DNA from: Chryseobacterium sp. G0162
Lineage (GTDB): Bacteria > Bacteroidota > Bacteroidia > Flavobacteriales > Weeksellaceae
Assembly (NCBI RefSeq): GCF_003815715.1
Contig: NZ_CP033922.1
Coordinates: 4,636,001-4,700,000 of the forward strand
Length of the DNA stretch: 64,000 bases
Direction: 5' to 3'
The translations under genes and the position numbers were made by a program. A model generated the notes under the pieces. It was not told the DNA's origin and ran no database searches. It saw only the letters and a program-made list of their open reading frames with translations. Of this stretch, positions 23,132 through 40,143 are shown in pieces. Position 1 is the stretch's first letter. Each line of letters begins with the position of its first letter.

Positions 23132-23170
23132 AGAATATAAATGATAGTTGATAAATTTTTTACGAAGGTA

Positions 23171-23221
23171 ATTTATAAATAAAAGATAAAAGATAAAAGA
23201 TAAAAGATAAAAGATAAAAGA
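23171..23221. repeat. 7-bp tandem repeat upstream of iaaA
   Basis: About six copies of aaaagat run in tandem, perfect over most of their length. They lie about 40-90 bases upstream of the isoaspartyl peptidase start, within the 299-base gap to the cyanophycinase gene. In the other reading frames they give YLLSFIFYLL-like nonsense peptides. Confidence 0.85.
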
Positions 23222-23372
23222 TCTTGTCTTTAAATAACAATTACCCATATGTATATCCACACGAATACAAACATCAATAGAGGTAGGCTTTAGCTAATCT
23301 GAAAAAATATTCAACCCCTTAGCTTTAGCCCAAACTTATTTGATAGTCTGTTATAATCTAAACGGTGATTTT

Positions 23373-23405
23373 TAAAAAACAAAAAACGGAACCAAGGTCC
23401 CGTTT
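23373..23405 (-). terminator. Terminator after cyanophycinase
   Basis: On the minus strand, the stem aaacggga/ttccgttt (one mismatch) with loop ccttgg is followed by a T-run. It lies 26 bases after the cyanophycinase stop. Confidence 0.75.
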
Positions 23406-23430
23406 ATATTTATATAAGGTATGAATTTTA

Positions 23431-24321: not shown

Positions 24322-24325
24322 GGTA

Positions 24326-24333
24326 CAAAATTA
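24326..24333 (-). promoter_or_regulatory. Candidate -7 box for cphB
   Basis: On the minus strand this reads TAATTTTG, an exact TAnnTTTG match, with its last base only five bases from the cphB ATG. The transcript would therefore start at or very near the start codon, a leaderless or nearly leaderless mRNA. Confidence 0.5.
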
Positions 24334-24465
24334 AAAAATAATTAACACATTTGGCGAATTTCGTGCCATCTTTAGTTGATTTTTAATGTTTTAGAAATGT
24401 GAATAAAGATTAATTTTTTTTAATAAATCTTCAAGTGTGGTATAGTTTCGTTTAGGGTTTTATAT

Positions 24466-24473
24466 TATATTTG
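24466..24473 (+). promoter_or_regulatory. Candidate -7 box for cphA
   Basis: TATATTTG matches TAnnTTTG exactly, 45 bases ahead of the cphA start. The -33 region has no TTG at the ideal distance. Confidence 0.5.
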
Positions 24474-24517
24474 ATTATAAAATAAGTTATTATTAACTGA
24501 CAAAATGCCAATAGACT

Positions 24518-27148
24518 ATGAAAATCGAAAAGATTCAGGCACTACGAGGTCCTAATATCTGGAGTATCAGAAGAAAGAAGCTGATACAGATGAGGTTGGA
24601 TCTTGAAGAAATGGAGAATTATCCTACCAATAAAATAGAAGGATTCAGGGATAGAATTGAAAAATTAATCCCGTCACTGATTACCCACAGGTGTTCAGAA
24701 GGAGTGGAAGGTGGTTTTTTCCATAGAGTGGAAACAGGAACCTGGATGGGACATGTCATTGAGCATATTGCCTTGGAAATACAGACCCTGGCGGGGATGG
24801 ATGTTGGCTTTGGAAGAACCCGGGAAACCAAAACGCCGGGAGTGTATAATGTAGTCTTCAATTATCTTGAAGAAAATGTAGGAATTTATGCTGCTGAGGA
24901 ATCCGTCAAGATTGCAGAAGCTTTAATTGAAGGAAAAGATTACAACCTGAATGCCTGTATTCAGAAACTGAAAGAGATCAGAGAACGTGTACGTCTGGGT
25001 CCATCTACCGGAAGTATTGTAGAAGAAGCCGTTTCCAGAAAAATACCCTGGATCCGGTTGGGAACAAATTCATTGGTACAGTTGGGATATGGAGTCAATC
25101 AACAGCGTTTTCAAGCGACAATTACCGGAAAAACAAGCTCTATTGCGGTAGATATTGCCTGCAATAAAGAATTAACCAAAAGGATGCTTCACGATGCTGC
25201 TATTCCGGTACCTATAGGTGACTTGGTGGTTGATGAGGAAGATTTAAATAACGTTATCAAAAAAATAGGGTATCCCATTGTTTTAAAACCTTTGGATGGG
25301 AATCATGGAAAAGGCTCTTCTATCAATGTTAATGATTGGGAGGCTGCCAAAATTGGATTGGAACATGCCCAGAAATACTCCCGAAAAGTAATCGTTGAAA
25401 AATACATTACAGGATATGATTTCAGGGTATTGGTTATTGATAATAAAATGGTGGCGGCAGCAAGAAGAGTTCCTGCCCATATCGTTGGAGACGGGGAACT
25501 GAATATTCAGCAGCTTATTGATAAAGAAAATAAAGATCCACGAAGAGGGTATGGCCATGAAAATGTTCTCACCGAAATTGCAGTGGATAAAGATACTTTA
25601 GAACTGCTTGAAAAGCTTCAATATACTTTGGAAACAGTTCCGCAAAGAGGAGAGGTGGTTTATCTGAAATCTACAGCCAATCTTTCTACAGGAGGAACAT
25701 CAATAGATGTTACCGATATGGTGCACCCGGAAAATATTACAATGGCGGAAAGGATTTCCAAGATTATCGGACTTGATGTTTGCGGGATTGATATTATGGC
25801 AGAAAACCTTACACAACCTTTAAAAGAAAGTGGTGGGGCTATTATAGAAGTCAATGCTGCTCCAGGATTTAGGATGCACCTAGCTCCAAGTGAAGGGTTA
25901 CCAAGAAATGTAGCGGCTCCGGTAGTGGATATGCTATATCCACAGGGAAAACCTTTTACCATTCCGATTATTGCAGTAACCGGAACCAACGGAAAAACAA
26001 CCACAACAAGATTAATTTCCCACATTGTAAAAAGCAATGGTTATAGAGTAGGATTTACTACTTCAGATGGAATTTATATTCAAAATACAATGCTGTCGAA
26101 AGGAGATACCACAGGACCATTGTCAGCAGAGTTTATTTTAAAAGATCCTACCGTGGAGTTTGCTGTTCTGGAGACAGCCAGAGGTGGAATTCTCCGTTCC
26201 GGGTTAGGATTTTCACAATGTGATATTGGCGTTCTGACCAATATTGAGGAAGATCATTTGGGAATGAATGATATCCATAACCTGAAAGATCTTACTAAAG
26301 TAAAGCGGGTTGTATTAGACAGTGTAAAGAAAACCGGTTGGAGTGTGCTGAATGCAGACAATGAGTATTCCATGAAAATTGTTAACAATCTTGATTGTAA
26401 TGTAGCTATTTTCAGCATGGATGAGAATAATCCTCATATTGTAAAATTTGCCAAAGAAGGAAGAATTACCTGCGTTTATGAAGAAGGTTTTGTAACCATT
26501 AAGAAAGGTGACTGGAAGATTAGAATAGGTAAAGCCAAAGATTTCCCGATTACAATGGATGGTAAAGCCAGATTCATGATCGAAAATGTTTTGGCGGCCA
26601 GTTTGGCAAGTTATCTTCATGGATTTGGAATTGAGGATATTTCCAATTCGTTAAGAACCTTTATTCCAAGTGCGCAGCTTACTCCCGGAAGATTAAATGT
26701 CTTTAAGTTTAAAAGCTTTAAAGTGTTGATCGACTTTGCCCACAACCCATCCGGATATGAAGCTATAGAAGATTACCTGAAAAATGTTGAATCTACCAAA
26801 AAAATAGGGATTATTTCCGGTGTTGGAGACAGAAGAGACAATGATATCAGAGAATGTGGGAAAATTGCAGGAAGAATGTTCGATCATATCATCATCCGAA
26901 ATGAAAAACATCTTCGTGGAAGAACAGAAGAGGAGATCAATGGATTGATTATCGAAGGCATGCAGTCTTCAGGAAAAGATGTCAGCTACGAAATTATTCC
27001 TAAAGAAATTGAAGCATTGAAGCATGCCATGGGAATGGCTGAAGACGGAACATTCATTACGGCTTTAAGTGATGTAATTTCCAATGCTATTGATCTTGTT
27101 CAGGAATATCAGGCAAGAGAATTGCTGGAAGATGACAAGAATTTGTAA
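24518..27148 (+). CDS. cphA: Cyanophycin synthetase
   Basis: The 876-residue protein has the CphA1 layout: an N-terminal domain (to about 220), an ATP-grasp domain with KPLDGNHGKGSS at about 257, and a Mur-ligase domain with the intact P-loop GTNGKTTTTR at about 488. The ATP-grasp half adds Asp to the backbone and the Mur-like half joins Arg to its side chain. The P-loop is intact, so both activities should be present, unlike in CphA2-type enzymes, which lose the Mur-ligase function. It is divergent from cphB and followed by a strong terminator. Confidence 0.96.
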   Translation: MKIEKIQALRGPNIWSIRRKKLIQMRLDLEEMENYPTNKIEGFRDRIEKLIPSLITHRCSEGVEGGFFHRVETGTWMGHVIEHIALEIQTLAGMDVGFGRTRETKTPGVYNVVFNYLEENVGIYAAEESVKIAEALIEGKDYNLNACIQKLKEIRERVRLGPSTGSIVEEAVSRKIPWIRLGTNSLVQLGYGVNQQRFQATITGKTSSIAVDIACNKELTKRMLHDAAIPVPIGDLVVDEEDLNNVIKKIGYPIVLKPLDGNHGKGSSINVNDWEAAKIGLEHAQKYSRKVIVEKYITGYDFRVLVIDNKMVAAARRVPAHIVGDGELNIQQLIDKENKDPRRGYGHENVLTEIAVDKDTLELLEKLQYTLETVPQRGEVVYLKSTANLSTGGTSIDVTDMVHPENITMAERISKIIGLDVCGIDIMAENLTQPLKESGGAIIEVNAAPGFRMHLAPSEGLPRNVAAPVVDMLYPQGKPFTIPIIAVTGTNGKTTTTRLISHIVKSNGYRVGFTTSDGIYIQNTMLSKGDTTGPLSAEFILKDPTVEFAVLETARGGILRSGLGFSQCDIGVLTNIEEDHLGMNDIHNLKDLTKVKRVVLDSVKKTGWSVLNADNEYSMKIVNNLDCNVAIFSMDENNPHIVKFAKEGRITCVYEEGFVTIKKGDWKIRIGKAKDFPITMDGKARFMIENVLAASLASYLHGFGIEDISNSLRTFIPSAQLTPGRLNVFKFKSFKVLIDFAHNPSGYEAIEDYLKNVESTKKIGIISGVGDRRDNDIRECGKIAGRMFDHIIIRNEKHLRGRTEEEINGLIIEGMQSSGKDVSYEIIPKEIEALKHAMGMAEDGTFITALSDVISNAIDLVQEYQARELLEDDKNL

Positions 27149-27288: not shown

Positions 27289-28473
27289 TTATAGCTCTCC
27301 AAAAAAAGCATTAGAACTTCCAATCCAGATAGCATCTTTTTTATTGAAATCCACATTGACCATGGCTGCTTTGGTCATTCTTCCTAAATTTTCAAGTAGA
27401 ATAGGACGCTCATCATTTTCTTTCCAAATATACAGCAAACGGATCTCTGCCTTTGAAAATTCCCCATTGATATCTTCAAAAAGTGGTTCATAAGTTACTT
27501 TTCTCTGTAGGATATAGTTTTCCTTATCTTCAATAGTGTTTGTGATTTCTTTAGTCGGATTTAAATTTACACCACTGCCTGCAAATGAAAATAATGGCTT
27601 TAATACAAAATCCTCAAGGTTTTCATGTTCCGGAAATTCATGTAAGAAATAACTTTTAGGAACAAATTGATGTTTCAGGAATGGTAAAATAAACTTAGAA
27701 ATCTTAAAGAACCAGTTCGGATGAGTGATCCATTGTACATCTACTTCTTCACGGAAATCAAACTCAGTTTTAAGATCGGGAATCCTATCCAATTCATCAA
27801 ATATAACACGATTGTAGATTCTTTTAATTTCAACAAGTTTGCTGTCATTTTCATAGTAAAGCTTTTTACCTTCCTTCTTTATTTTGGTTAAACACACCGT
27901 TTTGATACCGAGTAATTGCTCGGTTAAAGTAAAGTCGATGGCTGTTTTCTGCTTTTCAGGAAAGATTTCAAGAAGAATGACATTCTCAGGATTTTCATCC
28001 CCTACAATCAGATCTTTTAAATACTGTTTAAAGTCTTCATGAGACATAGGATTACGAATCGATGAAAGAAAAGGATAAACTTCACAGAACGTTTCTTCAT
28101 AAATCTTTTGGAAAACATATAATGAAGGAAAAGCCTGAAGCTCTATCAGCTGTGGTTCAATTGTTCCATCTTCACTTTTACAGACTCCAAAATCGATGGT
28201 AAAAAAATGGGGTTGGTCTGTGTCATTGGGAACCCTGCAGTTGTCAGGAATTGCTTTTTGAAGGGTTTCAGCCGGAAGCGCTTTGATCTGGCTAATGATA
28301 CTTTCACTGGCATCAAGCAATTTACCTTCAAATTCTTTGGTAAGGAAAATCGGGCTTTCTGAAATTCTGAAACCCGGTTCTATACCGCCTTTGCGTGTTA
28401 AAATTTCTTTAAGCTGTTTGTATTTTTCATCTGAAAACTCCTGATTGAAATGCTTTCTGTATTTTGGGATCAT
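27289..28473 (-). CDS. ATP-grasp-type ligase-like protein, last gene of the amidoligase cluster
   Basis: The 394-residue soluble protein has a typical ATP-grasp Lys/Gly loop in FVLKPLFSFAGSGVN at about residues 285-300, and a C-terminal segment IRLLYIWKENDERPILLENL that may supply metal ligands. The rest, including IDFGVCKSEDGTIEPQLIEL, fits no family I know. I infer that it forms an amide or ester bond using ATP. It is the last gene of the minus-strand cluster with two further ATP-grasp genes, a GCS2 ligase and an amidotransferase. A terminator-like hairpin lies 21 bases before its start. It converges with cphA. Confidence 0.6.
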   Translation of the reverse strand: MIPKYRKHFNQEFSDEKYKQLKEILTRKGGIEPGFRISESPIFLTKEFEGKLLDASESIISQIKALPAETLQKAIPDNCRVPNDTDQPHFFTIDFGVCKSEDGTIEPQLIELQAFPSLYVFQKIYEETFCEVYPFLSSIRNPMSHEDFKQYLKDLIVGDENPENVILLEIFPEKQKTAIDFTLTEQLLGIKTVCLTKIKKEGKKLYYENDSKLVEIKRIYNRVIFDELDRIPDLKTEFDFREEVDVQWITHPNWFFKISKFILPFLKHQFVPKSYFLHEFPEHENLEDFVLKPLFSFAGSGVNLNPTKEITNTIEDKENYILQRKVTYEPLFEDINGEFSKAEIRLLYIWKENDERPILLENLGRMTKAAMVNVDFNKKDAIWIGSSNAFFGEL

Positions 28474-28493
28474 ATTTTTTCTTTTGTGGTGGT

Positions 28494-28520
28494 AAAAAAT
28501 CGAGCATTTTTGCTCGATTT
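28494..28520 (-). terminator. Terminator-like hairpin 21 bases before the start of the 27289 gene
   Basis: A perfect 10-bp stem (aaatcgagca, loop tttt, complement) ends on the minus strand in a T-run. It can end the transcript of the amidotransferase gene upstream or act as an attenuator for the ATP-grasp gene downstream, because there is no room for a promoter between it and that start. Confidence 0.75.
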
Positions 28521-28538
28521 GATATTTGAAATAAATTT

Positions 28539-28705
28539 AACCACAAAAGTCACAAAAGTTTTTATTAAAAATATAAATGGATGTATAATAAGTTCACATA
28601 AGATAGAAAATCAAAGATTTTCAAAACGCCTAAATGTACTTTTCAAACAGTTTAGTAGTAACTTAAAAAGAACTTAGGGGTTAAGCTTTTGTGGCTTTTG
28701 TGGTT
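28539..28705. repeat. Inverted-repeat element between the amidotransferase and ATP-grasp genes
   Basis: Arms aaccacaaaagtcacaaaag (28539-28558) and its complement with one difference (28686-28705) bound a 167-base element. It includes an inner gaaaatcaaagattttc palindrome. A degenerate piece of similar sequence (aaatcaaagatttt) occurs near 21833. The rest of the 244-base gap holds only the hairpin and no gene. Confidence 0.7.
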
Positions 28706-28717
28706 TATTTTAATTTT

Positions 28718-29551
28718 TTAAGCCAAAGATTCAACGTTCTTCAAAATGTTTTTTTTTGCGAACTGAAGAAATCTCGGGAGGATCTGATTTCTGGTCAGGA
28801 TGATTTTATCTTCATCATCTATTCTGTCCATAGTTTCAAGATATTTTTCCATTCCGAAGTTTTCAATCATAGCTTCTCTGTTCTTATCGTCTTTAAGGTT
28901 TTCTATTAAAGCTTCAGGGCTTGCTTCCGGGTGAAATTGGGTCCCGAATATTTCATCAGAAAAACGAACAGCCATTATCGCTCTCTCCAAATTGATATGA
29001 GGTCGGAACTTTTCAATAGCCATAACAGTCATTCCCAATTCTTCAAAACGGTCGTGATCCGGCTCAATGAATTGATAAGCTCTGGAATCTACTGCATAAA
29101 AAGGATCCTGAAGATTTTTGAATAAAAATTCCTCCCGGCCTTCTTTTGTTTTATGAATTGGCATTACCCCAAAAGAATAGGATTTTCTTTTACAGATATT
29201 CCCTAACTTCCAATGAATACTTGCCAACTGAAAAGAATGACAAATCAGGAAAAGATACTTTTTATCCTCATTGTATTTATTATGTTCAAAAACGGAATCT
29301 AAAAATTGAGCAAACCTATTTTCCCATTCGAAACCTTCACGATGCGGGGTTCCTGGTCCGCCTGAAGAAATAAAAATATCAAAGTCTCCAATCTCCGGCA
29401 TTTCATCTTTAAACCTGACATCAAATGTCTCGATGATTACATTTTCTTCAGAGTTCTGCTTAAACGTTTCAGAAATTTCTTTAATGTTTCTAAAGCCTTG
29501 ATTAACATGATTGTTGTTCATGTCCAGCAGAGCAATTCGAATATCTTTCAT
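28718..29551 (-). CDS. Class I glutamine amidotransferase-like protein
   Basis: The 277-residue protein shows the GATase-I triad: the nucleophile Cys at about 104 in FLICHSFQLA and the His-Glu pair in FGTQFHPEAS. Oxyanion-type Gly residues lie in DIFISSGGPGTPH. Class I amidotransferases release ammonia from glutamine for a partner enzyme, or act as peptidases in related families. It is 33 bases downstream of the GCS2-type ligase gene, so it could feed ammonia to that ligase or trim gamma-glutamyl bonds. It lacks the synthetase domain of GMP synthase. Confidence 0.85.
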   Translation of the reverse strand: MKDIRIALLDMNNNHVNQGFRNIKEISETFKQNSEENVIIETFDVRFKDEMPEIGDFDIFISSGGPGTPHREGFEWENRFAQFLDSVFEHNKYNEDKKYLFLICHSFQLASIHWKLGNICKRKSYSFGVMPIHKTKEGREEFLFKNLQDPFYAVDSRAYQFIEPDHDRFEELGMTVMAIEKFRPHINLERAIMAVRFSDEIFGTQFHPEASPEALIENLKDDKNREAMIENFGMEKYLETMDRIDDEDKIILTRNQILPRFLQFAKKNILKNVESLA

Positions 29552-29584
29552 TACATCATATTTTTTGTAAAGTTACCAAAAATA

Positions 29585-30706
29585 TTATGAAGCGGATTCA
29601 CCATGTGTAATGCCGTATTCTGTTTCTGAGATCATATAATCCACAACCTTAGTAAGATCCCCGGTTTCTTTGAAGATCTGAAGCTGTCGATCGGCACCCG
29701 TACCATTTTCAAGAATTTTCCAGGCATATTCAACTTCTTGTCGGCATCCTAAATCATCTACTACATCATCAATAAACTCTAAGAGTTCTTTTAACAAATG
29801 GGGATAAGGAACCGATTCTTCTTTTCCAAAATCAATCAGATGAGCCTCAATACCGCTTTTGGAAGCACGCCATTTATTTTCATTCAATAAAAGTCTTCTG
29901 TAGCTTCTAAAACTCAGATTTTGTTGGTGGAGTTTATAAATTTTAGCCACTAAACTCTGCATAATGGCTGCAAGACATACTGTTTCATCAATTCTTAAAG
30001 GCATATCGCAAATCCTGAACTCAATGGTAGGATAGAACGGATGAACCCTTAAATCCCACCATATTTTTTTAGCATTATCAATGGTTCCTGTTTTTACCAA
30101 AAGATCGACATAGCTGTCAAATTCTGCCAATGAATTGAAGTAACTGGGAATACCGGTTCTCGGAAATTTAACGAAAATTTCCTGTCTGTAAGATTTAAAA
30201 CCTGTATACCTTCCGATCCAGAAAGGAGAATTGGTAGAAAGGGCATAAACGTGAGGCAGAAAATATCGCATTACATTCTGAATTCTTACGCCTTCCTCAC
30301 GATTAGGAATTCCAATATGAACATGAAGTCCAAAAATCAGGTTCTCACGGGCAACATCCCCCATATCATCAACAATTTTGATATATCTCTCTCCCTGAGT
30401 AATCGTATTGTCAGACCAATGAGAAAAAGGGTGGGTTCCTCCTCCGGAAACGCGAAGTCCCTGTTCGTGGGCTGTATTGATGAGATGCCTTCTTAAATTG
30501 GTTAATTCTGCCCGGGCTTCCTGAATATTCTGACAGATGCCGGTCTCCATTTCAATCATGGATTCGTGCATTTCATGCTTTAGATTTTCACTCAATACCG
30601 CTTTTCCGCCTTCAATGATTTTTGATACGTGCGAAATCAGATCCCTGCTTTCAACATCAATGATCTGATATTCTTCTTCGATTCCAATAGTAAACTGATG
30701 ATGCAT
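29585..30706 (-). CDS. Carboxylate-amine ligase, GCS2/YbdK type
   Basis: The 373-residue protein has the YbdK signature: TIGIEEEYQIID at the start, EMHESMIEMETG, the loop SGGGTHPFSHW and FGLHVHIGI. These are the ATP and metal residues of the glutamate-cysteine ligase type 2 fold, which forms an amide between a carboxylate and an amine. E. coli YbdK shows weak gamma-glutamylcysteine synthesis, but the physiological substrates of most members are unknown. It lies between an ATP-grasp gene (30 bases upstream) and the amidotransferase gene (33 bases downstream) in one transcript. Confidence 0.9.
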   Translation of the reverse strand: MHHQFTIGIEEEYQIIDVESRDLISHVSKIIEGGKAVLSENLKHEMHESMIEMETGICQNIQEARAELTNLRRHLINTAHEQGLRVSGGGTHPFSHWSDNTITQGERYIKIVDDMGDVARENLIFGLHVHIGIPNREEGVRIQNVMRYFLPHVYALSTNSPFWIGRYTGFKSYRQEIFVKFPRTGIPSYFNSLAEFDSYVDLLVKTGTIDNAKKIWWDLRVHPFYPTIEFRICDMPLRIDETVCLAAIMQSLVAKIYKLHQQNLSFRSYRRLLLNENKWRASKSGIEAHLIDFGKEESVPYPHLLKELLEFIDDVVDDLGCRQEVEYAWKILENGTGADRQLQIFKETGDLTKVVDYMISETEYGITHGESAS

Positions 30707-30736
30707 TGTCTTGTGTTTTTTTATTCTTTTTCAATA

Positions 30737-31690
30737 TTATTTTATGGAATCTTTCACGAAGGTTCCCCAAGTGATATTAGGTTTTCCCGGAACATATTCC
30801 TTAGCTTTTTCAATAGCAAGCTTAGCAGCATGTTCTATAATCCATGCGAAATTCTCTTCTCCTACAGAATTTCTGTCTGCATCCGGAGCCGGATTACAGA
30901 AGTCAATAGCATAAGGAATACCATCCCTTACAGCAAATTCAACAGTGTTGAAATCATATCCTAATGCTTCATTCATTTTGATTGTATAATCATGAATGGT
31001 TTTTAATAATTTTTCAAGCTCTTCCCCTTGTGTCTGGTGAGTAGTGGCATACCTTAAGTGATGTGGGTTCCTAGGTTCGTAAGGCATGATATGAACATAT
31101 TTTCTGCCCAGACAATACACTCGGTAATAATCATCAAAAATAATTTCTTCCTGAACCATCATCACCAGCTGTTCTGTTTCTCCAAGCTTGTTCCAAAGAT
31201 CATCCGGATTTTCTACCCTGTAAACATTCTTCCAGCCGCCACCATCGTGAGGTTTCATATAAGCAGGAAATCCAACATAATCAAAAATATATTCCCAGTC
31301 ATGGGGAAATTTAAGGTTCCTGAATGAAGTTTCCGAAGTATCGGTTGGCCTCTCATGGGATGGAAGCAATACTGTTTTGGGCAATGGAATTCCTAATTTG
31401 CTCATAAGTGCATTATTGAAAAATTTTTCATCAGCACTCCACCAAAACGGATTATTGATTACATAAGTGCCGTTTAGTGCGGCGTTTTTCAGATAAGCTC
31501 TGTAAAAAGGAACATTCTGCGAAATTCTGTCGATGATCACTGCATAACCATAATCTGCCCCTTGTTCTAATTTGTCAATGGTAACAGGTTCAGCCACGAT
31601 ATCTCCACCTCCCAATTCATTTACTTTGTCTATAAATGCCCAGGGAAATGTGTCTTCCATACCGAATAGAATTCCTACTTTTTTTGTCAT
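30737..31690 (-). CDS. ATP-grasp ligase
   Basis: The 317-residue protein has an N-terminal pre-ATP-grasp part (KKVGILFGMEDTFPWAFIDK) and an ATP-grasp domain. The ATP-binding Lys is in FPAYMKPHDGGGWKNVY (about residue 145), and the adenine-binding and metal segments are in MVQEEIIFDDYYRVYC and AIDFCNPAPDADRNS. It is a cytosolic carboxylate-amine ligase of unknown substrate, loosely like RimK or carnosine-synthase relatives. It is 30 bases upstream of the GCS2 ligase gene, so the two ligases probably act in the same pathway. Confidence 0.85.
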   Translation of the reverse strand: MTKKVGILFGMEDTFPWAFIDKVNELGGGDIVAEPVTIDKLEQGADYGYAVIIDRISQNVPFYRAYLKNAALNGTYVINNPFWWSADEKFFNNALMSKLGIPLPKTVLLPSHERPTDTSETSFRNLKFPHDWEYIFDYVGFPAYMKPHDGGGWKNVYRVENPDDLWNKLGETEQLVMMVQEEIIFDDYYRVYCLGRKYVHIMPYEPRNPHHLRYATTHQTQGEELEKLLKTIHDYTIKMNEALGYDFNTVEFAVRDGIPYAIDFCNPAPDADRNSVGEENFAWIIEHAAKLAIEKAKEYVPGKPNITWGTFVKDSIK

Positions 31691-31760
31691 AATTTTTGTT
31701 TTTAATGGTGTATACTATACTTTATTTCTCAACAGAATCTATGATTCTTTAGATTTTTAA

Positions 31761-31825
31761 AACTTAAGCGTTAAAGTATTGATTCTCTTTTTCATTTAAA
31801 AATCTTTATTTTAAACACTTAAGTT
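31761..31825. repeat. Inverted repeat between ATP-grasp and esterase genes
   Basis: Arms aacttaagcgttaaa (31761-31775) and tttaaacacttaagtt (31810-31825) pair almost completely around a loop of about 34 bases, in the 174-base gap of the cluster. Promoter or RNA-processing element; no T-run. Confidence 0.55.
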
Positions 31826-31864
31826 ATTTTACAAACTGATTTTTTGTTTTTATTTGGAGGTTTT

Positions 31865-32578
31865 TTAAGAGAAATAAGCTCCAATAAAGATTGGAAAAAC
31901 CATTCTCCACAACGGCCAGTCGTGACCAATCCATTTTCTTTCATCATACCAGAAATCAATACCTTTTACCCTTAAGATTTCTGCCATTTCAATATTCTTG
32001 TCTTTGCAGATATCCTGATCGGAGGTGCTCAATACAATGTGCATATGCTTATATTTCCATGCTTCATCATTTCTTACAAACTCTCTTGGACAATTGAAAT
32101 ACACCAGGTCATCGGAATAACCGTCCATAAAATTTCTTATACTGAAAGCCCCTGAAAGGCAAAACAAATGAGAAACTACATCCGGAAACCTAAAAGCAAA
32201 ATTGGCAGCGTGATAACCTCCAAAACTGGCTCCAGCCACTGCTACACGATGGGTTTTATGAAGTTTTTGAATGTATGGAACAAACTCCACGATCAAAAAC
32301 TGCACGTATCGTTCGTAATTTTTGATTCTCTGTTGCGGTGATAGTGTTTTATCATAAAAGCTCCAGCTGTCAATGGTCTGAATATTATAAAGCTTTACCT
32401 TTCCCTGTTCTACAAACCAATTGATACTTCCGTTAAGGTGAAAGTTATGGTTCTGGGTATATTGTCCTTGAGAAGTAGGAAACATGATAATAGGATATCC
32501 GGAATATCCGGTCACTTCTACCTTAAGACTTGTTCCCAATATGTTGGAATAGTAATCAGTATGTTCTATATGCGACAT
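31865..32578 (-). CDS. Alpha/beta-hydrolase-fold esterase (EsteraseD-like)
   Basis: The 237-residue protein has the nucleophile elbow GASFGGYHAA (Ser about 118), with the likely acid in STSDQDICK and the His in WIGHDWPLW. It resembles the putative esterase family that also includes enterochelin esterase-like and EsteraseD-like proteins. There is no signal peptide, so it acts in the cytosol. It sits between two ATP-grasp genes (29 bases after the one upstream), so it may release or transfer an acyl group in the same pathway. Confidence 0.85.
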   Translation of the reverse strand: MSHIEHTDYYSNILGTSLKVEVTGYSGYPIIMFPTSQGQYTQNHNFHLNGSINWFVEQGKVKLYNIQTIDSWSFYDKTLSPQQRIKNYERYVQFLIVEFVPYIQKLHKTHRVAVAGASFGGYHAANFAFRFPDVVSHLFCLSGAFSIRNFMDGYSDDLVYFNCPREFVRNDEAWKYKHMHIVLSTSDQDICKDKNIEMAEILRVKGIDFWYDERKWIGHDWPLWRMVFPIFIGAYFS

Positions 32579-32607
32579 TTAAATTTGTACTTTAAGGTTG
32601 TGTATAA

Positions 32608-33822
32608 TTAACTGCTTAACTTACTAGTCTTAGGCGGAAGGATGTTGAGCATTTCAGCATTGATCTTTTCTGCGGCGCTGTCTAGTCTTTCTTCTATTAC
32701 GGAAGCATCACTGGATTTGTATACAATTCCAACATGATAATCGATGGGAAGAAATTTTATGGCTTCCTCACATGCGAATTTACTATAATCTGGCTCTTTA
32801 TCTTTGATAAGCGCAACAATAAGACCTGCGTAATATCCTGTAGGAGGGGAGACACTATAGTTTTTATTTCTTAAGAGAGCATCTTCAATTTTGGCCCATT
32901 CTCTCCAGATATTGATGCTGCTTGAAGCTTCTACCAAATCAGGAATATGAGCACCCCCCACTCGTGAGGAGGTTTCCAGAAAATACCATTTTCCGTCTTT
33001 TTTTCCACGGATGAATTCCGTATGAGTGGCTCCGTTGAGTAATCCAAAGTTGGAAAGTACCCTGGAATTGATCTCTTCCAAAGCTTTGAACTCATCAGAG
33101 TATCTTCCTAATGTTTTAGATCTGAAAACACCCCCTTCATGAGAAACCTGCATAGGCGGAGCCAGATATTTTGATGCAGAAGTAAAGACTATTTCTTTGT
33201 TGAAGGTAAGGCTGTCTACATGATATACATCTCCCGGTTTAAAGCTTTCCAGGAGGAAAAGATGACGCTCTTCTCCAAGAGTTTCCAACGCCTCATGAAG
33301 CTGTTCTTTGGTCATGATCTTTTTAATTCCTGATGCCGAAGCCTCTGAACGGGGTTTCAATACCCATGGAGCGGGAACCTTATCTACAAATTCATTCACT
33401 GTATCGTCATTGAAAACGGCCGTAAATTCAGGAACATTGATGCCTGTGTCTTTCGCCTTTTGGCGCATCGCCAGTTTATCTCTGAAATAGCGGTGGGTCG
33501 TCTGTCCCATTCCCGGAATACGAAACGTTTCGCGGATCAGGGCAGCCTTTTCTACGTCGTAGTCATCAAGAGCAACTACAGCATCTACTTTTCTTGTTTT
33601 CATCAGGTGTGAAAATCCCTGAATCAAATGTTCCAGATTCCACACAGATGGTTTGATTTCAGGCATATAAAATACCTCATCAATGGCTTGCCAGGGCCAG
33701 TTTTTTTCTTTAAGATTTTCTGATGTTACTAAGATGATTTTATTACCGAGCCTCTTCATTTCATCCATGAAGTCATAGCCCTTGTAATAGCACGAAATAC
33801 ATACTATAATTTTCTCCTCCAT
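32608..33822 (-). CDS. ATP-grasp domain ligase (carnosine-synthase/biotin-carboxylase-like)
   Basis: The 404-residue protein has an N-terminal Rossmann-like part (EKIIVCISCYYKGYDFMDEM), a middle helical part (IPGMGQTTHRYFRDKLAMRQ) and an ATP-grasp domain with WVLKPRSEASASGIKK (Lys about 155). Metal-binding Glu is in WYFLETSSRVGG, with Ser where Asn is usual. Relatives join an amino acid to another carboxylate. It begins a sub-cluster with the downstream esterase (29-base gap). A 140-base gap upstream, with TATTTTTG boxes on the minus strand at 33852-33859 and 33889-33896, may hold a promoter. Confidence 0.87.
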   Translation of the reverse strand: MEEKIIVCISCYYKGYDFMDEMKRLGNKIILVTSENLKEKNWPWQAIDEVFYMPEIKPSVWNLEHLIQGFSHLMKTRKVDAVVALDDYDVEKAALIRETFRIPGMGQTTHRYFRDKLAMRQKAKDTGINVPEFTAVFNDDTVNEFVDKVPAPWVLKPRSEASASGIKKIMTKEQLHEALETLGEERHLFLLESFKPGDVYHVDSLTFNKEIVFTSASKYLAPPMQVSHEGGVFRSKTLGRYSDEFKALEEINSRVLSNFGLLNGATHTEFIRGKKDGKWYFLETSSRVGGAHIPDLVEASSSINIWREWAKIEDALLRNKNYSVSPPTGYYAGLIVALIKDKEPDYSKFACEEAIKFLPIDYHVGIVYKSSDASVIEERLDSAAEKINAEMLNILPPKTSKLSS

Positions 33823-33962
33823 ATAATGTTTTTTAAGTTTTAGTGAATTATCAAAAATAAAAGCAATTCTTTATTGTTTGATTAATATCAAAAATAAAAA
33901 TATGATGTGCTTTTATGAATCACTAATCAAGTATACAGAGAATTTTTGTAATAAACTAATTT

Positions 33963-35378
33963 TTAGTGATAATTTTCGATTAAATCCGTGAGCAATTGAA
34001 CCCCATATCCGGTTGCTGCTTTTTCTTTAGCATACCCTACATTTCCAAAGGCTACTCCGGCAATATCCAAATGCGCCCATTTAGGGTGGTTTTCAGTGAA
34101 TTGTTCTAAGAATTTTGCGGCGATAATACAATCTCCAACAGGCTTTAGAGACATGTTTTTTAAGTCGGCTACATCAGACTGTATATCGTCTTTCCAGATA
34201 TCCCATAATGGTAAATTCCATAGCCTCTGATTGGTGTGATCTCCGGTTTTTATCAAAAGGTTTTTCAGGTCTTCATTATTGGAAAATAGAGCTCCACAAG
34301 TATCGCCAAACATTCTTACTGAACTTCCCGTTAAAGTAGCGAGATCAATAAGGAAATCTGTTTTGTAATTTTTAGTTAGATAAGACAGTCCGTCAGCAAG
34401 AATTAGCCTGCCTTCCGCATCCGTATCCATAACTTCAATAGTTTTACCATTGTAAGCGGTAATCACATCACTTGGAAGAAGGGCTTTTTCGGAAATAGCA
34501 TTATCAGTAATTGGGAGAACGGCTATAATGTTAACCGGTAAATTCATTTCAGCAGCATAGATTAGAGTCCCTAAAACAGCTGTTGCCCCACCCATATCGG
34601 ATTTCATATAATGCATATTGGTAAAAGGTTTCAAGGAAATTCCTCCGGTATCAAACAATACACATTTTCCAACCAATCCAAATGTTTTGGCATTTTTAAC
34701 CGTGGTCTTATATTCCAAAATAGTAAAGGCTGCATCATGAGCGCTTCCTTGGTTAACAGCAAGATAAGCTCCAAGCCCAAGTTCTTCGCATTTTTTTCTG
34801 TTGAAAACGGTATATTTTAATTCATATTTTTTTGCCAGATTTTTAAGGTATAAACTGAAAACTTCCGGTTTTTTTAGATTCGCAGGTTTATTCATCCATT
34901 CCTGGCAAGCGATTTGTCCATTGCTTAAAGCTTCAGCTTTCTGGCTGATAAAATCCAGTTTTTTCTGGCTTAAATTTTCAAAATGCAATTCAAATTTTGA
35001 ATTCCAGAAAGGATGTTTTTTTTCAAAAGGATAGTTGTAAGTTCCTATGAGTAATCCCTTTACGAATTCTTCAAACTGTTTTTCATTAAGAGAATCTGCA
35101 AGCAGTAAAGTGGGAGCAGCCTGTAGTTTTTCCTTTTGGGTTTGGGAGAATTTTACCGCAACCTGTTGGAGTTCAAAATTTTGTAAAGTCGAGTTTCCGA
35201 GTCCGATAAAGTAAGTAATTCCTTCTTCATGAGCATTGATGAACACTTCATGCTTTTTTCCTGTGAAGAATAGGGCAATATTTTTATTGAAATTTTTACT
35301 TGTTTTGGTCCATTCCTCTTCAGTGAATAAATGAAATATTTGGGTGTAGTTTCTATTTTTTTTGTTGATTAGTTTCAT
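33963..35378 (-). CDS. M17 leucyl aminopeptidase family protein
   Basis: The 471-residue protein shows the M17 catalytic signatures: GLVGKCVLFDTGGISLKP (about residue 235) and a form of the NTDAEGR motif, here VMDTDAEGRLILADGL (about 319), with Asn replaced by Asp. Two zinc ions are expected from these Lys, Asp and Glu residues. Enzymes of this family remove N-terminal residues or split Cys-Gly and other dipeptides. It begins five bases after the CBM48-like esterase gene and so is co-transcribed with it. The cluster suggests a dipeptide or modified peptide as substrate. Confidence 0.93.
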   Translation of the reverse strand: MKLINKKNRNYTQIFHLFTEEEWTKTSKNFNKNIALFFTGKKHEVFINAHEEGITYFIGLGNSTLQNFELQQVAVKFSQTQKEKLQAAPTLLLADSLNEKQFEEFVKGLLIGTYNYPFEKKHPFWNSKFELHFENLSQKKLDFISQKAEALSNGQIACQEWMNKPANLKKPEVFSLYLKNLAKKYELKYTVFNRKKCEELGLGAYLAVNQGSAHDAAFTILEYKTTVKNAKTFGLVGKCVLFDTGGISLKPFTNMHYMKSDMGGATAVLGTLIYAAEMNLPVNIIAVLPITDNAISEKALLPSDVITAYNGKTIEVMDTDAEGRLILADGLSYLTKNYKTDFLIDLATLTGSSVRMFGDTCGALFSNNEDLKNLLIKTGDHTNQRLWNLPLWDIWKDDIQSDVADLKNMSLKPVGDCIIAAKFLEQFTENHPKWAHLDIAGVAFGNVGYAKEKAATGYGVQLLTDLIENYH

Positions 35379-35383
35379 AAAAT

Positions 35384-36508
35384 TTAGTTCTTAATGCTTT
35401 GTTGTTGTGGTTTTACTTCTACAGGATTTTCTGTATTGTCATAGAACAGCCATTCAATAGCTCTCGGAAACTCCTGTGACCAGTAAAATTCATTGTGAGT
35501 TCCTTCAGGATTAATACTGGTTCTGAATTCAAAGTCGAAGAGGTTCTTTTTTTCCCATCTTTTCAGATATTCTTCAAAAATATGAATTCTTTTGACCATT
35601 TTAGATCCTTCCTGTCCACCGCCATATAAGTATATTTTTGTTTTAAATGGAACCCGGAAGTTCATCATTGGAAAGTTATTATTGGGTTCCACCCAAAGAG
35701 AAGGAGAGAAGATTAATAACTTAGAATAAACTTCAGGATAAAGGAATCCACTGTAAATACTGATTAATGCTCCCAGCGAGCTGCCACCGATTCCTGTATT
35801 GTCGCGGTCCTTTTTAGTACGGTAATTTTCATCCACATAAGGCTTTAAAGTATCAGCAATAAAACGGATGTATTTTTTTCCCTCAGAGCCATTGGCTACA
35901 TTATCATTATCAAAGATATATTCTTTAATCCGTTCTTCGCTTCCGTGTTCTATAGCAATGACGATAATATCACCACGCCCGTATTCTGCAAGGATAGATA
36001 GCTTTTTATCAATTTCCCAGTTTCCGAAACCACTTCCTTCATTGAACAGGTTTTGGGCATCCTGAAGATATAAAACAGGATAGCTCTTCTCCGAAGTATG
36101 ATAGTCATAAGGAAGTACGGCCCAGATTTTCCGGTAACGATCCAGTTGTGGAATATAGAATTTTTCGGAAATGACTTCAGCAGTGGGGAAGAACTCCTCC
36201 TTAAATGGTCCCCAGTTTAATCTCCATTTTTCTACAGTATCAGAGACTTTCTGGAGTGATTTTTTTGTTTTCCGATTAGGAGTGATATTTCCATATTTAT
36301 CCAGTTCTACATTTTCCCAGCCTCCTTTAGTGAATTTGTACTCAATTTCATCAGCTAGCTTTTCGTCTTCAATTTCTATAAAATAATGATGTGAATCTGA
36401 TCTTTGGAGTAGGTAATTATAGTCTTTTGGATTCCAATTGTTGAAATTACCAGTAATAAATACGGGCCTGTCATCTTTTTCATCAGTATAAAGTTCGAAC
36501 CTCATCAT
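35384..36508 (-). CDS. Esterase with N-terminal CBM48/E-set-like domain
   Basis: The 374-residue protein starts with an early-set domain (VFITGNFNNWNPKDYNYLLQ, very like the glycogen-binding-type domain of GlgB nearby). A linker leads to an alpha/beta-hydrolase domain with WAVLPYDYHTSEKSYPVLYL and the Ser elbow GIGGSSLGA (about residue 241). The His is probably in GTHNEFYW. It resembles enterochelin-esterase-like proteins, which have a similar two-domain shape. No signal peptide is present. It heads the minus-strand cluster and is divergent from glgB (198-base gap). Glycan binding and esterase action are inferred. Confidence 0.85.
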   Translation of the reverse strand: MMRFELYTDEKDDRPVFITGNFNNWNPKDYNYLLQRSDSHHYFIEIEDEKLADEIEYKFTKGGWENVELDKYGNITPNRKTKKSLQKVSDTVEKWRLNWGPFKEEFFPTAEVISEKFYIPQLDRYRKIWAVLPYDYHTSEKSYPVLYLQDAQNLFNEGSGFGNWEIDKKLSILAEYGRGDIIVIAIEHGSEERIKEYIFDNDNVANGSEGKKYIRFIADTLKPYVDENYRTKKDRDNTGIGGSSLGALISIYSGFLYPEVYSKLLIFSPSLWVEPNNNFPMMNFRVPFKTKIYLYGGGQEGSKMVKRIHIFEEYLKRWEKKNLFDFEFRTSINPEGTHNEFYWSQEFPRAIEWLFYDNTENPVEVKPQQQSIKN

Positions 36509-36706
36509 AAGTGTTTAATAAATTATTAGATTGCTAAATTTATAAAAAAGATTGTTTGGGAATCATAAAAAAGTGAATTAAAAAATGATATATTTGATAG
36601 GAAACGAAAGAGGGAAACTAACATGATAATTATTTGATGAATAATTAATCGCTATTATCAGTATTTTTCGTAGTTTCAGACAAAATATAAATACAAACTG
36701 ATCTTG

Positions 36707-38653
36707 ATGAATTCTGTTAAAACCTATACGCTTTTCACCGATCATGACGTGTATCTTTTCAAAGAAGGTAGACACTATAAGCTGTATAGTAAATTTGGAG
36801 CCCATTCTGTAGAGAAGGATGGTATAAAAGGAGTTTATTTTTCGGTTTGGGCACCTAACGCCAAAAAGGTTTCCGTAATAGGAGATTTTAATAACTGGAA
36901 CCATAAAGATCATATTTTGTTTCCAAGATGGGATGGTTCCGGGATTTGGGAAGGCTTTATTGAAGAGTTGCCTTGGGGAACTTTATATAAATACGCCGTT
37001 GAAACAGCAAGAGGAGAAATCCTGGAGAAAAGTGATCCTTATGCTTTAAGCTGGGAACAGAATATTCAGGCAGCATCATTGGTTTCTACAACCTGGTATG
37101 AATGGAATGACAGGGGATGGATGGATAGCCGCAGGGAGAAAAACAATCTGGATGCCCCTTTGTCTGTATATGAATTACATCTGGGGTCATGGGTAAGAGA
37201 AGGTAATGATCCGGATAAATTTTTGAACTATCGTGATATTGCAAAGAAACTCGTCCCCTATATAAAAGAAATGGAGTTTACCCACGTGGAGTTTATGCCC
37301 GTTATGGAATATCCTTATGATCCAAGTTGGGGCTATCAGATTACAGGATTTTATGCCGCCACTTCACGATTTGGGTCACCACAGGATCTGATGTTCCTGA
37401 TTGATGAACTTCATCAGCATAATGTAGGTGTTATTATGGATTGGGTACCCTCACATTTTCCCGGAGATGCTAATGGACTGTATCGTTTTGATGGTTCTCA
37501 TTTATATGAACATGAAGATCCGAGAAAAGGGTTTCATCCTGACTGGAAATCTCATATCTTTAATTATGGAAGAAATGAAGTAAAATCTTTCCTGATTTCC
37601 AATGCAATGTTTTGGCTGGATCGTTATCATGCAGATGGACTGCGTGTGGATGCCGTAACTTCAATGCTGCATCTGGATTATTCAAGGAATGAAGGAGAAT
37701 GGGAACCCAATATCTATGGCGGAAATGTAAATCTTGAAGCCAAAGCATTTCTGCAGGAATTTAATACCGCTGTTTATAAGGAATTCGGGAATAGTATTAT
37801 GACTATTGCTGAAGAGAGTTCAGATTTTCCTATGCTTACCAAGCCCGTTCATGATGGCGGTATAGGCTTTGGAATGAAATGGATGATGGGCTGGATGCAC
37901 GATACACTGGATTACTTCAAGGAAGATTTTGTCAACAGGAAGTTCCATCATCATAAGCTTACGTTTGCTTCCATGTATATGTATAATGAAAATTATATGA
38001 TGCCTTTGTCTCATGATGAAGTGGTACATGGGAAAGCTAGTCTGATCTATAAAATGAAAGGCGATGAATGGCAGAAATTCGCCAATCTTCGTACCCTATA
38101 CGTATATATGTATACCCATCCGGGAGCCAAGTTGCTTTTTATGGGTGATGAATTCGGGCAAACCAGCGAATGGAATTTTACCCGAAGCCTTGACTGGCAC
38201 CTGTTGGAGTATCCTGTGCATAAGGGATTGCAGAGGTTAGTAAAGGAACTAAACCATTTGTACCGATCAGAATCTGCATTGTATGAAAATCAGTTTGATA
38301 AAAACGGTTTTGAATGGATAGAGGCAGATGATCTGGAGAATTCGGTTTATGTTTATCTCAGAAAAGGAAAAAGAAGGGATGATGTTTTGATGACCGTATT
38401 AAATCTAACCCCAAAAGTCTTGGACTACAGAATAAAGATTCCTAACGGAACCCATTGGGACGTTATTCTTAATTCCGATGATGAAGAATATAGTGGAAGT
38501 GGAGTAATATCCGATATATTAGAAGAGAAATATGAAGACGGAACAGAGCATCAAAAGTTTATGACAATCAATTTACCTCCTCTGGCAGGGATTATTTTGA
38601 GACAGCAAAAAGATAAAAAGTATAAATTACACAGAATTAAACACAAAAGATAA
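36707..38653 (+). CDS. glgB: 1,4-alpha-glucan branching enzyme
   Basis: The 648-residue protein has an N-terminal CBM48 (VSVIGDFNNWNHKDH) and a GH13 catalytic domain with all four conserved regions: DWVPSHFPGD, GLRVDAVTSML (nucleophile Asp about 315), TIAEESSDFPM (acid/base Glu about 369) and MPLSHDEVVHGK. It makes alpha-1,6 branches in glycogen. The start is the ATG at 36707; an in-frame TTG three bases upstream is less likely. It is the first gene of glgB-glgA-glgC, and its stop is one base from the glgA start. Confidence 0.96.
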   Translation: MNSVKTYTLFTDHDVYLFKEGRHYKLYSKFGAHSVEKDGIKGVYFSVWAPNAKKVSVIGDFNNWNHKDHILFPRWDGSGIWEGFIEELPWGTLYKYAVETARGEILEKSDPYALSWEQNIQAASLVSTTWYEWNDRGWMDSRREKNNLDAPLSVYELHLGSWVREGNDPDKFLNYRDIAKKLVPYIKEMEFTHVEFMPVMEYPYDPSWGYQITGFYAATSRFGSPQDLMFLIDELHQHNVGVIMDWVPSHFPGDANGLYRFDGSHLYEHEDPRKGFHPDWKSHIFNYGRNEVKSFLISNAMFWLDRYHADGLRVDAVTSMLHLDYSRNEGEWEPNIYGGNVNLEAKAFLQEFNTAVYKEFGNSIMTIAEESSDFPMLTKPVHDGGIGFGMKWMMGWMHDTLDYFKEDFVNRKFHHHKLTFASMYMYNENYMMPLSHDEVVHGKASLIYKMKGDEWQKFANLRTLYVYMYTHPGAKLLFMGDEFGQTSEWNFTRSLDWHLLEYPVHKGLQRLVKELNHLYRSESALYENQFDKNGFEWIEADDLENSVYVYLRKGKRRDDVLMTVLNLTPKVLDYRIKIPNGTHWDVILNSDDEEYSGSGVISDILEEKYEDGTEHQKFMTINLPPLAGIILRQQKDKKYKLHRIKHKR

Positions 38654-38654
38654 A

Positions 38655-40061
38655 ATGGTTATCTATCATTTAAGTACAGAATGTTATCCTGTAGCAAAAG
38701 TGGGTGGGCTGGCAGATGTTGTTGGTGCACTTCCGAAATATCAGAATAAAATAAAAGGAATAGATGCCAAGGTGGTAATGCCATGGTATAACAAACCCTT
38801 TGTTTACGAACATGAGTTTGATTTGGTGTTTGATGGATTCATTCATCAGGGGGCTAATATGCTGCAGGTTCAGGTAATGAAGGAAAAAACAAATGTTCTG
38901 GGGTTTGAACTTTATATGGTGAGAATTCCGGGACTGCTGGATAGAGATAATCCTTACGGGTATCAGGATGAAAGTTTTCAGTTTCTGGCTTTCCAACAGG
39001 GAGTTCTGCATTGGTTATGTGCTATGGAATTAAAACCGGATGTTCTCCATTGTCATGATTATCATACCGGATTAGTTCCTTTTATGGTAGAACATTGTCC
39101 GGAATTTAGCTTTCTTAAAGGCGTAAAAACCATTGGAACGATCCATAACGGAGAGTATCAGGGAATGATGAGCTGGAATATGGCGAATTATATGCCTTCT
39201 TTTGATGCTTATAAATGGGGATTAATGGATTGGAATGGATTGATGAACCCACTGGCAAGTATGATTAAATGTTCAGATGCCTTTACTACAGTTTCCGAAG
39301 GATATCTGGAAGAACTTTTCATCAGTTTCAGAGGGCTTGAAAGTCTGGTCCGCCAGGAATTCGGCAAGGCGTATGGTATTATCAATGGAATTGATACGGA
39401 AGTCTGGAATCCGAAAACCGATCCGATGCTGGATTTTAATTTTAGCAGTAAAAATGCAGTGGCTCAAAAGAAAAAGAACAAAGAGAAACTTTGTAAAGAG
39501 TATGGCTTAAAACCTGAACTTCCTCTATTTGCATTCATTGGAAGGTTCGCTACGGAAAAAGGAGCAGATCTATTACCGGATGTGGTATGGAAAAGTATCA
39601 AACAAAGCTATGGCGCTTTAAATATCATGATTCTGGGGTCAGGAAATACCTATATTGAGAATAAACTTAAGGAATACGACTATACCTATACCAACTTTGC
39701 CCTGGATTTAGGGTATAAAGAACATCTTTCTCATAAGATCTATGCCTCGGCAGATTTCCTGTTAATGCCATCAAGAGTAGAGCCATGTGGTTTAAATCAA
39801 ATGTATTCCATGAGATATGGAACGGTTCCGGTAGTAAGATATACCGGAGGATTGAAGGATACGGTAGAAGATGTTTCAACGGGCGGAGCAGGACTGAACT
39901 TCACGTATCCTGGCGTAGATGATATTGTACATGCGATGAACAGAGCGATTGGAATCTACAATCAGAAAGGAATGATGGAAGAACTTATTCATGCGAATAT
40001 GAATTTTGACTTTGCATGGGAGAAATCTGCCGAAAAATATATAGCTTTATATAATAGCTGA
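38655..40061 (+). CDS. glgA: Glycogen synthase
   Basis: The 468-residue GT5 enzyme extends alpha-1,4 glucan chains from ADP-glucose. The N-terminal motif KVGGLADVVGALPK and the C-terminal EPCGLNQMYSMRYGTVPVVR, followed by TGGLKDTVED, are the nucleotide-sugar and acceptor signatures of GlgA. It is packed directly after glgB (one base between stop and start), and glgC follows after 82 bases. All three belong to one glycogen-synthesis operon. Confidence 0.96.
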   Translation: MVIYHLSTECYPVAKVGGLADVVGALPKYQNKIKGIDAKVVMPWYNKPFVYEHEFDLVFDGFIHQGANMLQVQVMKEKTNVLGFELYMVRIPGLLDRDNPYGYQDESFQFLAFQQGVLHWLCAMELKPDVLHCHDYHTGLVPFMVEHCPEFSFLKGVKTIGTIHNGEYQGMMSWNMANYMPSFDAYKWGLMDWNGLMNPLASMIKCSDAFTTVSEGYLEELFISFRGLESLVRQEFGKAYGIINGIDTEVWNPKTDPMLDFNFSSKNAVAQKKKNKEKLCKEYGLKPELPLFAFIGRFATEKGADLLPDVVWKSIKQSYGALNIMILGSGNTYIENKLKEYDYTYTNFALDLGYKEHLSHKIYASADFLLMPSRVEPCGLNQMYSMRYGTVPVVRYTGGLKDTVEDVSTGGAGLNFTYPGVDDIVHAMNRAIGIYNQKGMMEELIHANMNFDFAWEKSAEKYIALYNS

Positions 40062-40143
40062 TATAATAAAGTTTTTAATATCAGATTGATCAGACACCAA
40101 AAAGAAAACCTTAAACTTAATAAAATAAAAACGCAATATATTT

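Follow-up and report, generated by a model that had tools for sequence, protein, structure and literature searches.

Chryseobacterium sp. G0162 carries eight adjoining minus-strand genes that combine predicted amide-bond-forming ligases with hydrolases, and the question that this locus raises is whether they constitute one pathway and, if so, what that pathway might make. The genes lie at 27289-36508 of a 64,000-nucleotide stretch of DNA (assembly GCF_003815715.1, contig NZ_CP033922.1, positions 4,636,001 to 4,700,000), referred to here as the window; the host genome is a single contig of 5.28 Mb. The conclusion that the eight genes behave as one system is well supported. We tentatively favor the reading that one non-ribosomal, ATP-driven pathway both produces a short pseudopeptide and turns it over, and give it slightly less than an even chance. 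The eight open reading frames were given the letters A to H in order of rising coordinate:

A, 27289..28473, minus strand: probable divergent glutathionylspermidine-synthetase/YgiC-like carboxylate-amine ligase
B, 28718..29551, minus strand: class-I glutamine-amidotransferase-like hydrolase, Cys-His-Glu intact
C, 29585..30706, minus strand: GCS2/YbdK-type carboxylate-amine (gamma-glutamyl-type) ligase
D, 30737..31690, minus strand: divergent ATP-grasp ligase (RimK/R2K-like)
E, 31865..32578, minus strand: alpha/beta hydrolase (Esterase PF00756)
F, 32608..33822, minus strand: L-amino-acid-ligase-like ATP-grasp protein
G, 33963..35378, minus strand: M17 leucyl-aminopeptidase-type peptidase
H, 35384..36508, minus strand: esterase with an extra N-terminal stretch of ~110 amino acids

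All eight reading frames are ATG-started and open, on the strand and at the positions given in a preliminary description of this DNA. Between successive genes, starting at A, the gaps measure 244, 33, 30, 174, 29, 140 and 5 bases, so the four short joins described there (5, 29, 30 and 33 bases) were all correct. A Pfam scan of A-H found neither a carrier domain nor a transporter or precursor gene, signal sequences, judged by eye only, were not seen in them, and tRNA and Rfam scans of the window gave no match. A role in anti-phage defense was considered and rejected, as none of the eight proteins matched PADLOC models at 1e-3.

Chryseobacterium records match the D protein at up to 98% identity, and D was present in 24/24 searched genomes of the window's genus (23 relatives and its own) and in 0/15 other genomes of the order, sampled one per family. 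Of 395 genomes sampled from the whole phylum, 136 carry D and 114 carry A. Named carriers, taken from the best 80 of 567 matches, include Chryseobacterium, Elizabethkingia, Kaistella, Maribacter, Flavobacterium and Polaribacter, and further Dyadobacter, Runella, Algoriphagus, Cyclobacteriaceae and Saprospiraceae. The five genes E-D-C-B-A were found whole, collinear and on a single strand in 65 of the 80 named loci, and in 44 of the 57 classed as outside Weeksellaceae (L128, titled Flavobacteriaceae, was counted inside Weeksellaceae by D identity). Among the 15 others, several come from short contigs or have no copy of a gene such as C. Because gene order outside Weeksellaceae is kept at 38-76% protein identity, the layout is beyond chance. 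D shows the highest between-family identity of the core five. Median gaps outside Weeksellaceae were 41 bases for E-D, 30 for D-C, 65 for C-B and 1 for B-A (n=52, 53, 48 and 50) using homology-trimmed starts, gaps from the earliest start codon leaning short; gaps of at most 60 bases occurred in 32/52, 36/53, 21/48 and 44/50 loci, respectively.

The position of F, G and H is more variable. H-G-F-E-D-C-B-A lies on one strand in 18 of the 23 Weeksellaceae-type loci, and the same layout without H in four (three Kaistella, one at a contig end); the remaining locus is a short contig that holds just D and C. In four loci of Flavobacterium and one of Polaribacter, F-G-H runs on the strand opposite to E-D-C-B-A, while two Saprospiraceae loci have D-C-B-A-F with G opposite. 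The eight genes are thus two modules, A-E and F-H, and not one fixed operon.

We examined co-occurrence in 189 genomes of a single genus, that of genome G178, taken to be Flavobacterium as the G178 locus is nearest to named Flavobacterium records. At a presence cut-off of E 1e-40 or better, D, A and F were each found in 48 genomes: all three together in 47, none in 139 and a mixture in three, an all-or-none pattern in 186/189. The three mixed genomes are incomplete (G525, D only, 89% completeness; G604, A only, 68%; G432, an F fragment, 89%), and fragments were scored as present for D in G556 and for A in G450 and G496. A and F share a contig in 35 of the 47 genomes, 71 bases to 89 kb apart and at least 10 kb apart in 14, and lie on separate contigs in the other 12. 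Elsewhere, A is on another contig or at least 22 kb from D in G226, G284, G406 and G069. Scatter in related genomes, which the preliminary description had named as evidence against a single system, therefore does occur in some, yet within the one genus D, A and F were almost without exception present or absent together.

Across the phylum sample, after two marginal D hits were dropped from the 136 (G246 and G412; E 1.1e-4 and 8.2e-4), D and A occurred together in 110 genomes, D alone in 24, A alone in 4 and neither in 257. All 80 carriers of an F orthologue (E 1e-70 or better; 50 genomes with weak hits only, best 2.6e-10 and ~22-31% identity, were dropped from 130) have D. By this distribution, F depends on D. 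Fisher tests of co-occurrence gave extreme values, but the genomes are related to one another; the searches that spanned the whole phylum sample were those for D, A and F.

Parts of the set are exchangeable. In 16 genomes, all without A, A is replaced by another ATP-grasp ligase gene of ~450-490 amino acids directly beside D; two members were scanned, and gave a weak CP_ATPgrasp_2 match below cut-off. This replacement was tested in 45 hand-picked genomes, two weak hits (E 3.5e-4 and 8.0e-4) being dropped from 18, and was present in 16 of 24 D-positive A-negative genomes, with a strong match in 0/13 D-positive A-positive, 0/4 A-only and 0/4 genomes with neither. Of the other eight D-positive A-negative genomes, seven have only a remote D (32-42% identity) and the eighth is G416. 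Counting A or its replacement, a second ligase is present in 126/134 D genomes. In one family (f33: L097, G070, G167), F lies on the strand of D together with the replacement ligase, as does B where read.

B is likewise displaced. Among 60 genomes with the D region fetched, of the 136 with D, an M29 peptidase orthologue occurs in six, sited between C and A in five of these (14 genomes with weak M29 hits only, at most 33% identity, were dropped from 20; two members were scanned, both M29). B is absent from all six and present in 38 of the 54 others; the chance of all six lacking B is 0.0015 when relatedness is ignored. Since B is displaced by a peptidase, a hydrolytic role for B is favored over ammonia supply.

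The family assignments of the ligases differ in strength. C matches PF04107 (GCS2; E 3.5e-65), PRK13515 (E 1.3e-160, 534 bits against a cut-off of 371) and TIGR02050 (302 bits against 176), aligns over residues 3-340 with the YbdK chain 1r8g (E 3.6e-49), and is the only one of the ligases with a curated family above cut-off. The preliminary description had called three further ATP-grasp-type ligases. For F this holds: it matches PF13535 (ATP-grasp_4; E 5e-8), and its nearest PDB chain is the L-amino acid ligase 4wd3 (E 5.7e-18, residues 71-331 of 404), with 19.8 bits to the NCBIfam BacD model, whose cut-off is 850. The calls for D and A are weak. D has no Pfam match at 1e-3; it matches TIGR00768 (RimK) at E 5.5e-9 but below cut-off (35.8 against 143.4 bits), and R2K_2 ATP-grasp (PF18299) was matched in 18/31 orthologues at E up to 1 (best 7e-4), the window protein itself falling under the gathering score (E 0.12; 12.7 against 26.2 bits). 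A D profile matched the solved ATP-grasp chains 3ouu (E 4.2e-5) and 3r23 (E 6e-5) over ~130 columns. E251 of D is conserved in 29/31 orthologues (Asp in the other two), and D263 and N266 in 28/31. Three of the 31 aligned D proteins have Lys/Ala-rich C-terminal tails (L053:9751-10845, L057:9421-10488 and L088:9468-10493).

A gave no match at 1e-3 in Pfam or NCBIfam. PF03738 (GSP_synth) was matched in 6/19 A orthologues at E up to 1 (best 3.6e-4), and the window protein lies below its gathering score (16.8 against 29.3 bits). The nearest solved chain is YgiC 7uk8, at E 0.034, or 0.11 using a profile. Seven residues are invariant in 19/19 orthologues (D94, E111, Q113, K292, G299, G301 and R345); in a comparison with the GSP_synth/YgiC family, which is marked by metal-binding Asp, Glu and Asn and a KP...G motif, KPLFSFAGSGV stands against KPIFSREGANV, and D94 and E111 are retained. 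Weak competing matches were found to ATPgrasp_ST in 4/19 orthologues and to CP_ATPgrasp_2 in 2/19, and the best source-named A homologues among the matches listed are Ignavibacteria "hypothetical protein" entries. From sequence comparison, A is probably a weakly GSP_synth/YgiC-like carboxylate-amine ligase.

The GCS2 ligase, class I amidotransferase, M17 peptidase and two esterases of the preliminary description were all recovered by Pfam. B matches PF00117 (GATase class I; E 3e-9, 37.2 bits against a gathering score of 22.8), with the triad C104, H207 and E209 present in 17/17 orthologues. E matches PF00756 (E 1.6e-8) and the putative esterase chain 5vol (E 6.8e-8), and lies upstream of D in 77 of the 79 named loci with D called. 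G matches PF00883 (Peptidase_M17; E 9.3e-105) and its linkage to F extends over Weeksellaceae, Flavobacteriaceae and two loci of Saprospiraceae. H matches PF00756 (E 4e-23), with 6mot/6mou as nearest chains (E 6.7e-9, residues 112-251); its N-terminal ~110 amino acids resemble a glycogen-binding-type domain by eye, with no Pfam match there at 0.1. Many loci of L135-L190 have a divergent second esterase upstream of E, ~22-32% identical to H, which was PF00756 in the one scanned (L180). Six loci (L161, L163, L169, L171, L176 and L179) have an extra alpha/beta hydrolase between E and D; the one scanned, from L171, is S33-type.

The combination of stand-alone ligases and hydrolases, with no carrier, transporter or precursor among the eight, fits stepwise assembly and turnover of a small pseudopeptide, and with gaps so short in many loci, the core has no need of a precursor gene. 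In the pathway that we propose, C would activate a glutamate-type carboxylate and couple an amine, and D, as a divergent ATP-grasp ligase, would attach the following unit. A, or its putatively circularly permuted ATP-grasp-type replacement, would then close the chain on an amine; use of a polyamine by A is a guess. Hydrolysis of the product or intermediates would fall to B (or the M29 metallopeptidase) and to both esterases, E and H, and F (L-amino-acid-ligase type) with the aminopeptidase G may form the second, D-dependent module by making or recycling a dipeptide building block. The order C, D, A is suggested by analogy with glutathione and glutathionylspermidine assembly. The genes, their conserved order and co-occurrence, the exchangeable parts and the conserved key residues of A, B and D are direct observations, from which we infer every reaction, the order of steps, the substrates and the product. 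The fuller version, that the system makes a shared Bacteroidota metabolite, a gamma-glutamyl-type pseudopeptide that is amine-capped, built by stand-alone ligases (one exchangeable) and recycled by hydrolases of its own, alongside a dependent dipeptide-ligase module, is unlikely as a whole.

Several observations weigh against the pseudopeptide pathway. C is missing from 4 of 15 hand-picked genomes and lies away from D in four more; a gamma-glutamyl start can therefore not be universal. Neither B nor an M29 orthologue is present in 16 of the 60 D genomes. G190, a complete genome of the same genus that came from the phylum sample, outside the 189-genome draw, has A (E 7e-103) without a D or F orthologue, and G180, G255 and G353 also have A without D. 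A has Gln at the position of Asn in YgiC/Gss (by eye), and a profile-profile comparison (hhalign) of A with YgiC/Gss was weak (probability 5%, E 0.007, 64 columns); that of A with its replacement was weaker still (probability 4%), giving no clear homology between the two. The single system of the preliminary description largely stands, D, A and F being nearly always together within one genus; it is qualified in that the genes form two modules, C is dispensable, and G190, three incomplete genomes and three with A only are exceptions. Its interpretation overall, stepwise ATP-driven assembly of a short peptide or amide with the peptidase and hydrolases as trimming or release steps, is partly supported; trimming or release is a putative role, and the displacement of B by an M29 peptidase points to hydrolysis.

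The resemblance of D to R2K_2, and to RimK, raises another explanation at the expense of the pseudopeptide pathway: that the ligases modify a protein with an amino acid or peptide tag, which B/M29, E and H remove or trim, with no free product. R2K.2 and R2K.3 enzymes are proposed in PMC4431377 to target proteins, and the Lys/Ala-rich tails of three aligned D orthologues point the same way; in contrast, the core genes have no conserved small target protein encoded between them, and C, F and A look like enzymes that ligate free substrates. The evidence on either side is weak, and we regard protein modification as the main rival, a real but minor possibility. B might instead be an ammonia-supplying glutaminase, with A or D making a terminal carboxamide in an amidated peptide similar to N-acetylglutaminylglutamine amide (NAGGN), an osmolyte or nitrogen store. 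The class-I amidotransferase homology and intact triad of B agree with this, as do the cyanophycin genes that adjoin the cluster in this genus (listed below), but a metallopeptidase taking the B slot gives no ammonia, and B is absent from 22/60 D genomes. We judge an amidated peptide to be improbable. That the genes are unrelated neighbors, each ligase serving a separate known pathway, could be argued from C, the one ligase to score above the cut-off of a curated family and one found apart from D in some genomes, and from A, which occurs without D in 4/114 A genomes. It is largely contradicted by the all-or-none pattern of D, A and F, which holds though F is 10-89 kb from A in 14/35 genomes with both on one contig, and by the order kept in 65/80 loci, and we consider it very improbable indeed. 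Three genes near gene A bear on a further alternative:

cphA, 24518-27148, plus strand: cyanophycin synthetase
cphB, 23431-24321, minus strand: cyanophycinase
Asparaginase_2-type gene, 22289-23260, minus strand

With these genes (22289-27148) adjoining A, the cluster could be an accessory of cyanophycin metabolism that supplies or recycles Asp-Arg-type dipeptides. cphA is near the cluster in 11 of the 23 Weeksellaceae-type loci, all of them Chryseobacterium or Halpernia; however, no cph gene is near it in the Elizabethkingia, Kaistella and Epilithonimonas loci, or in any of the 57 other named loci (0/57 in the stretch read; genome-wide cphA presence was not searched). We judge a cyanophycin accessory to be highly doubtful. 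Distant cphB- or iaaA-like genes were seen near the cluster in two loci, L067 and L097.

On the other flank, glgB, glgA and glgC (36704-41412) are divergent from H, and glgB is near in 14 of the 23 Weeksellaceae-type loci. H as a glycogen-operon gene was rejected, as the four loci of Flavobacterium and the one of Polaribacter place H after F-G and have no glg gene in the stretch read. A link to nitrogen uptake was also set aside: an ammonium transporter, a porin and a ferredoxin recur in 10-12 Cytophagales loci, which was taken as local synteny. A gene for an argD-like class-III aminotransferase recurs in 16 loci among L141-L190. In 13 of them, from Dyadobacter, Spirosoma and others, it is sited ~4-5 kb downstream of D, and in three (L167, L171 and L179) ~4.4 kb upstream of D; it is possible that it supplies an amine substrate.

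We compared the set with known systems of similar composition. NAGGN synthesis uses an ATP-grasp ligase with an amidotransferase and a peptidase, a combination also present in the cluster. Its hallmarks are a GNAT-ATP-grasp ligase and an asparagine-synthetase-like protein; none of the eight proteins matched TIGR03103 or an asparagine-synthetase model at 1e-3, genes outside the eight not having been searched. Glutathione and glutathionylspermidine systems (GshA, GshB, Gss; YgiC, YjfC) are alike in that a GCS2-fold ligase, a peptide-type ATP-grasp and a GSP_synth-like ligase stand in one operon. In contrast to these systems, C is of the YbdK type (PRK13515) and far under the GshA model, D and A are under family cut-offs, and the cluster has extra hydrolases and the F-G-H module; a thiol or polyamine link is at most predicted. 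YgiC and YjfC are reported in PMC12568646 to be peptide-spermidine ligases, and the RefSeq name of YgiC is likewise peptide-spermidine ligase.

Stand-alone ATP-grasp oligopeptide pathways (L-amino acid ligases, dapdiamides, E-64) share stepwise formation of amide bonds free of non-ribosomal peptide synthetases, and F is nearest to solved L-amino acid ligases. PMC12568646 describes Cp1B, structurally near YgiC/YjfC, as making a pseudodipeptide in E-64. Unlike those pathways, the eight genes include no warhead-making, transport or resistance gene, and the set is wide in the phylum rather than sporadic. The R2K clade of ATP-grasp enzymes is approached by D, which is weakly R2K_2-like but below the gathering score. 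For that clade, PMC4431377 proposes that linked peptide ligases act one after another, or that proteins are the targets; a word search of its main text returned none of bacteroidetes, aminopeptidase and esterase. Graspetide clusters also combine ATP-grasp ligases with peptidases, but the core gaps of many loci have no room for a precursor gene, and a graspetide was rejected on these short gaps, stretches outside the core not having been searched for precursors. Within the three wide gaps of the window, ATG-started small reading frames of at least 15 codons amounted to one of 26 amino acids on the genes' strand and four of 15-75 amino acids on the opposite strand.

A literature search found no description of this gene set; the 2009 amidoligase survey, outside that search, may already list the neighborhood. 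Each enzyme can be placed within or close to a known superfamily, but the set acts as one trait, and an all-or-none pattern such as that of D, A and F is usually the sign of a real pathway that leads to a defined product. The patchy presence of the set inside a genus allows close relatives with and without it to be compared. If the fuller version given above is true, the amine-capped pseudopeptide would play the same kind of role as glutathionylspermidine/trypanothione or the NAGGN osmolyte. Should the product be a new peptide-like metabolite, several uncharacterized amide-forming enzymes would become biocatalyst leads, and much of a major bacterial phylum would have an unrecognized metabolism.

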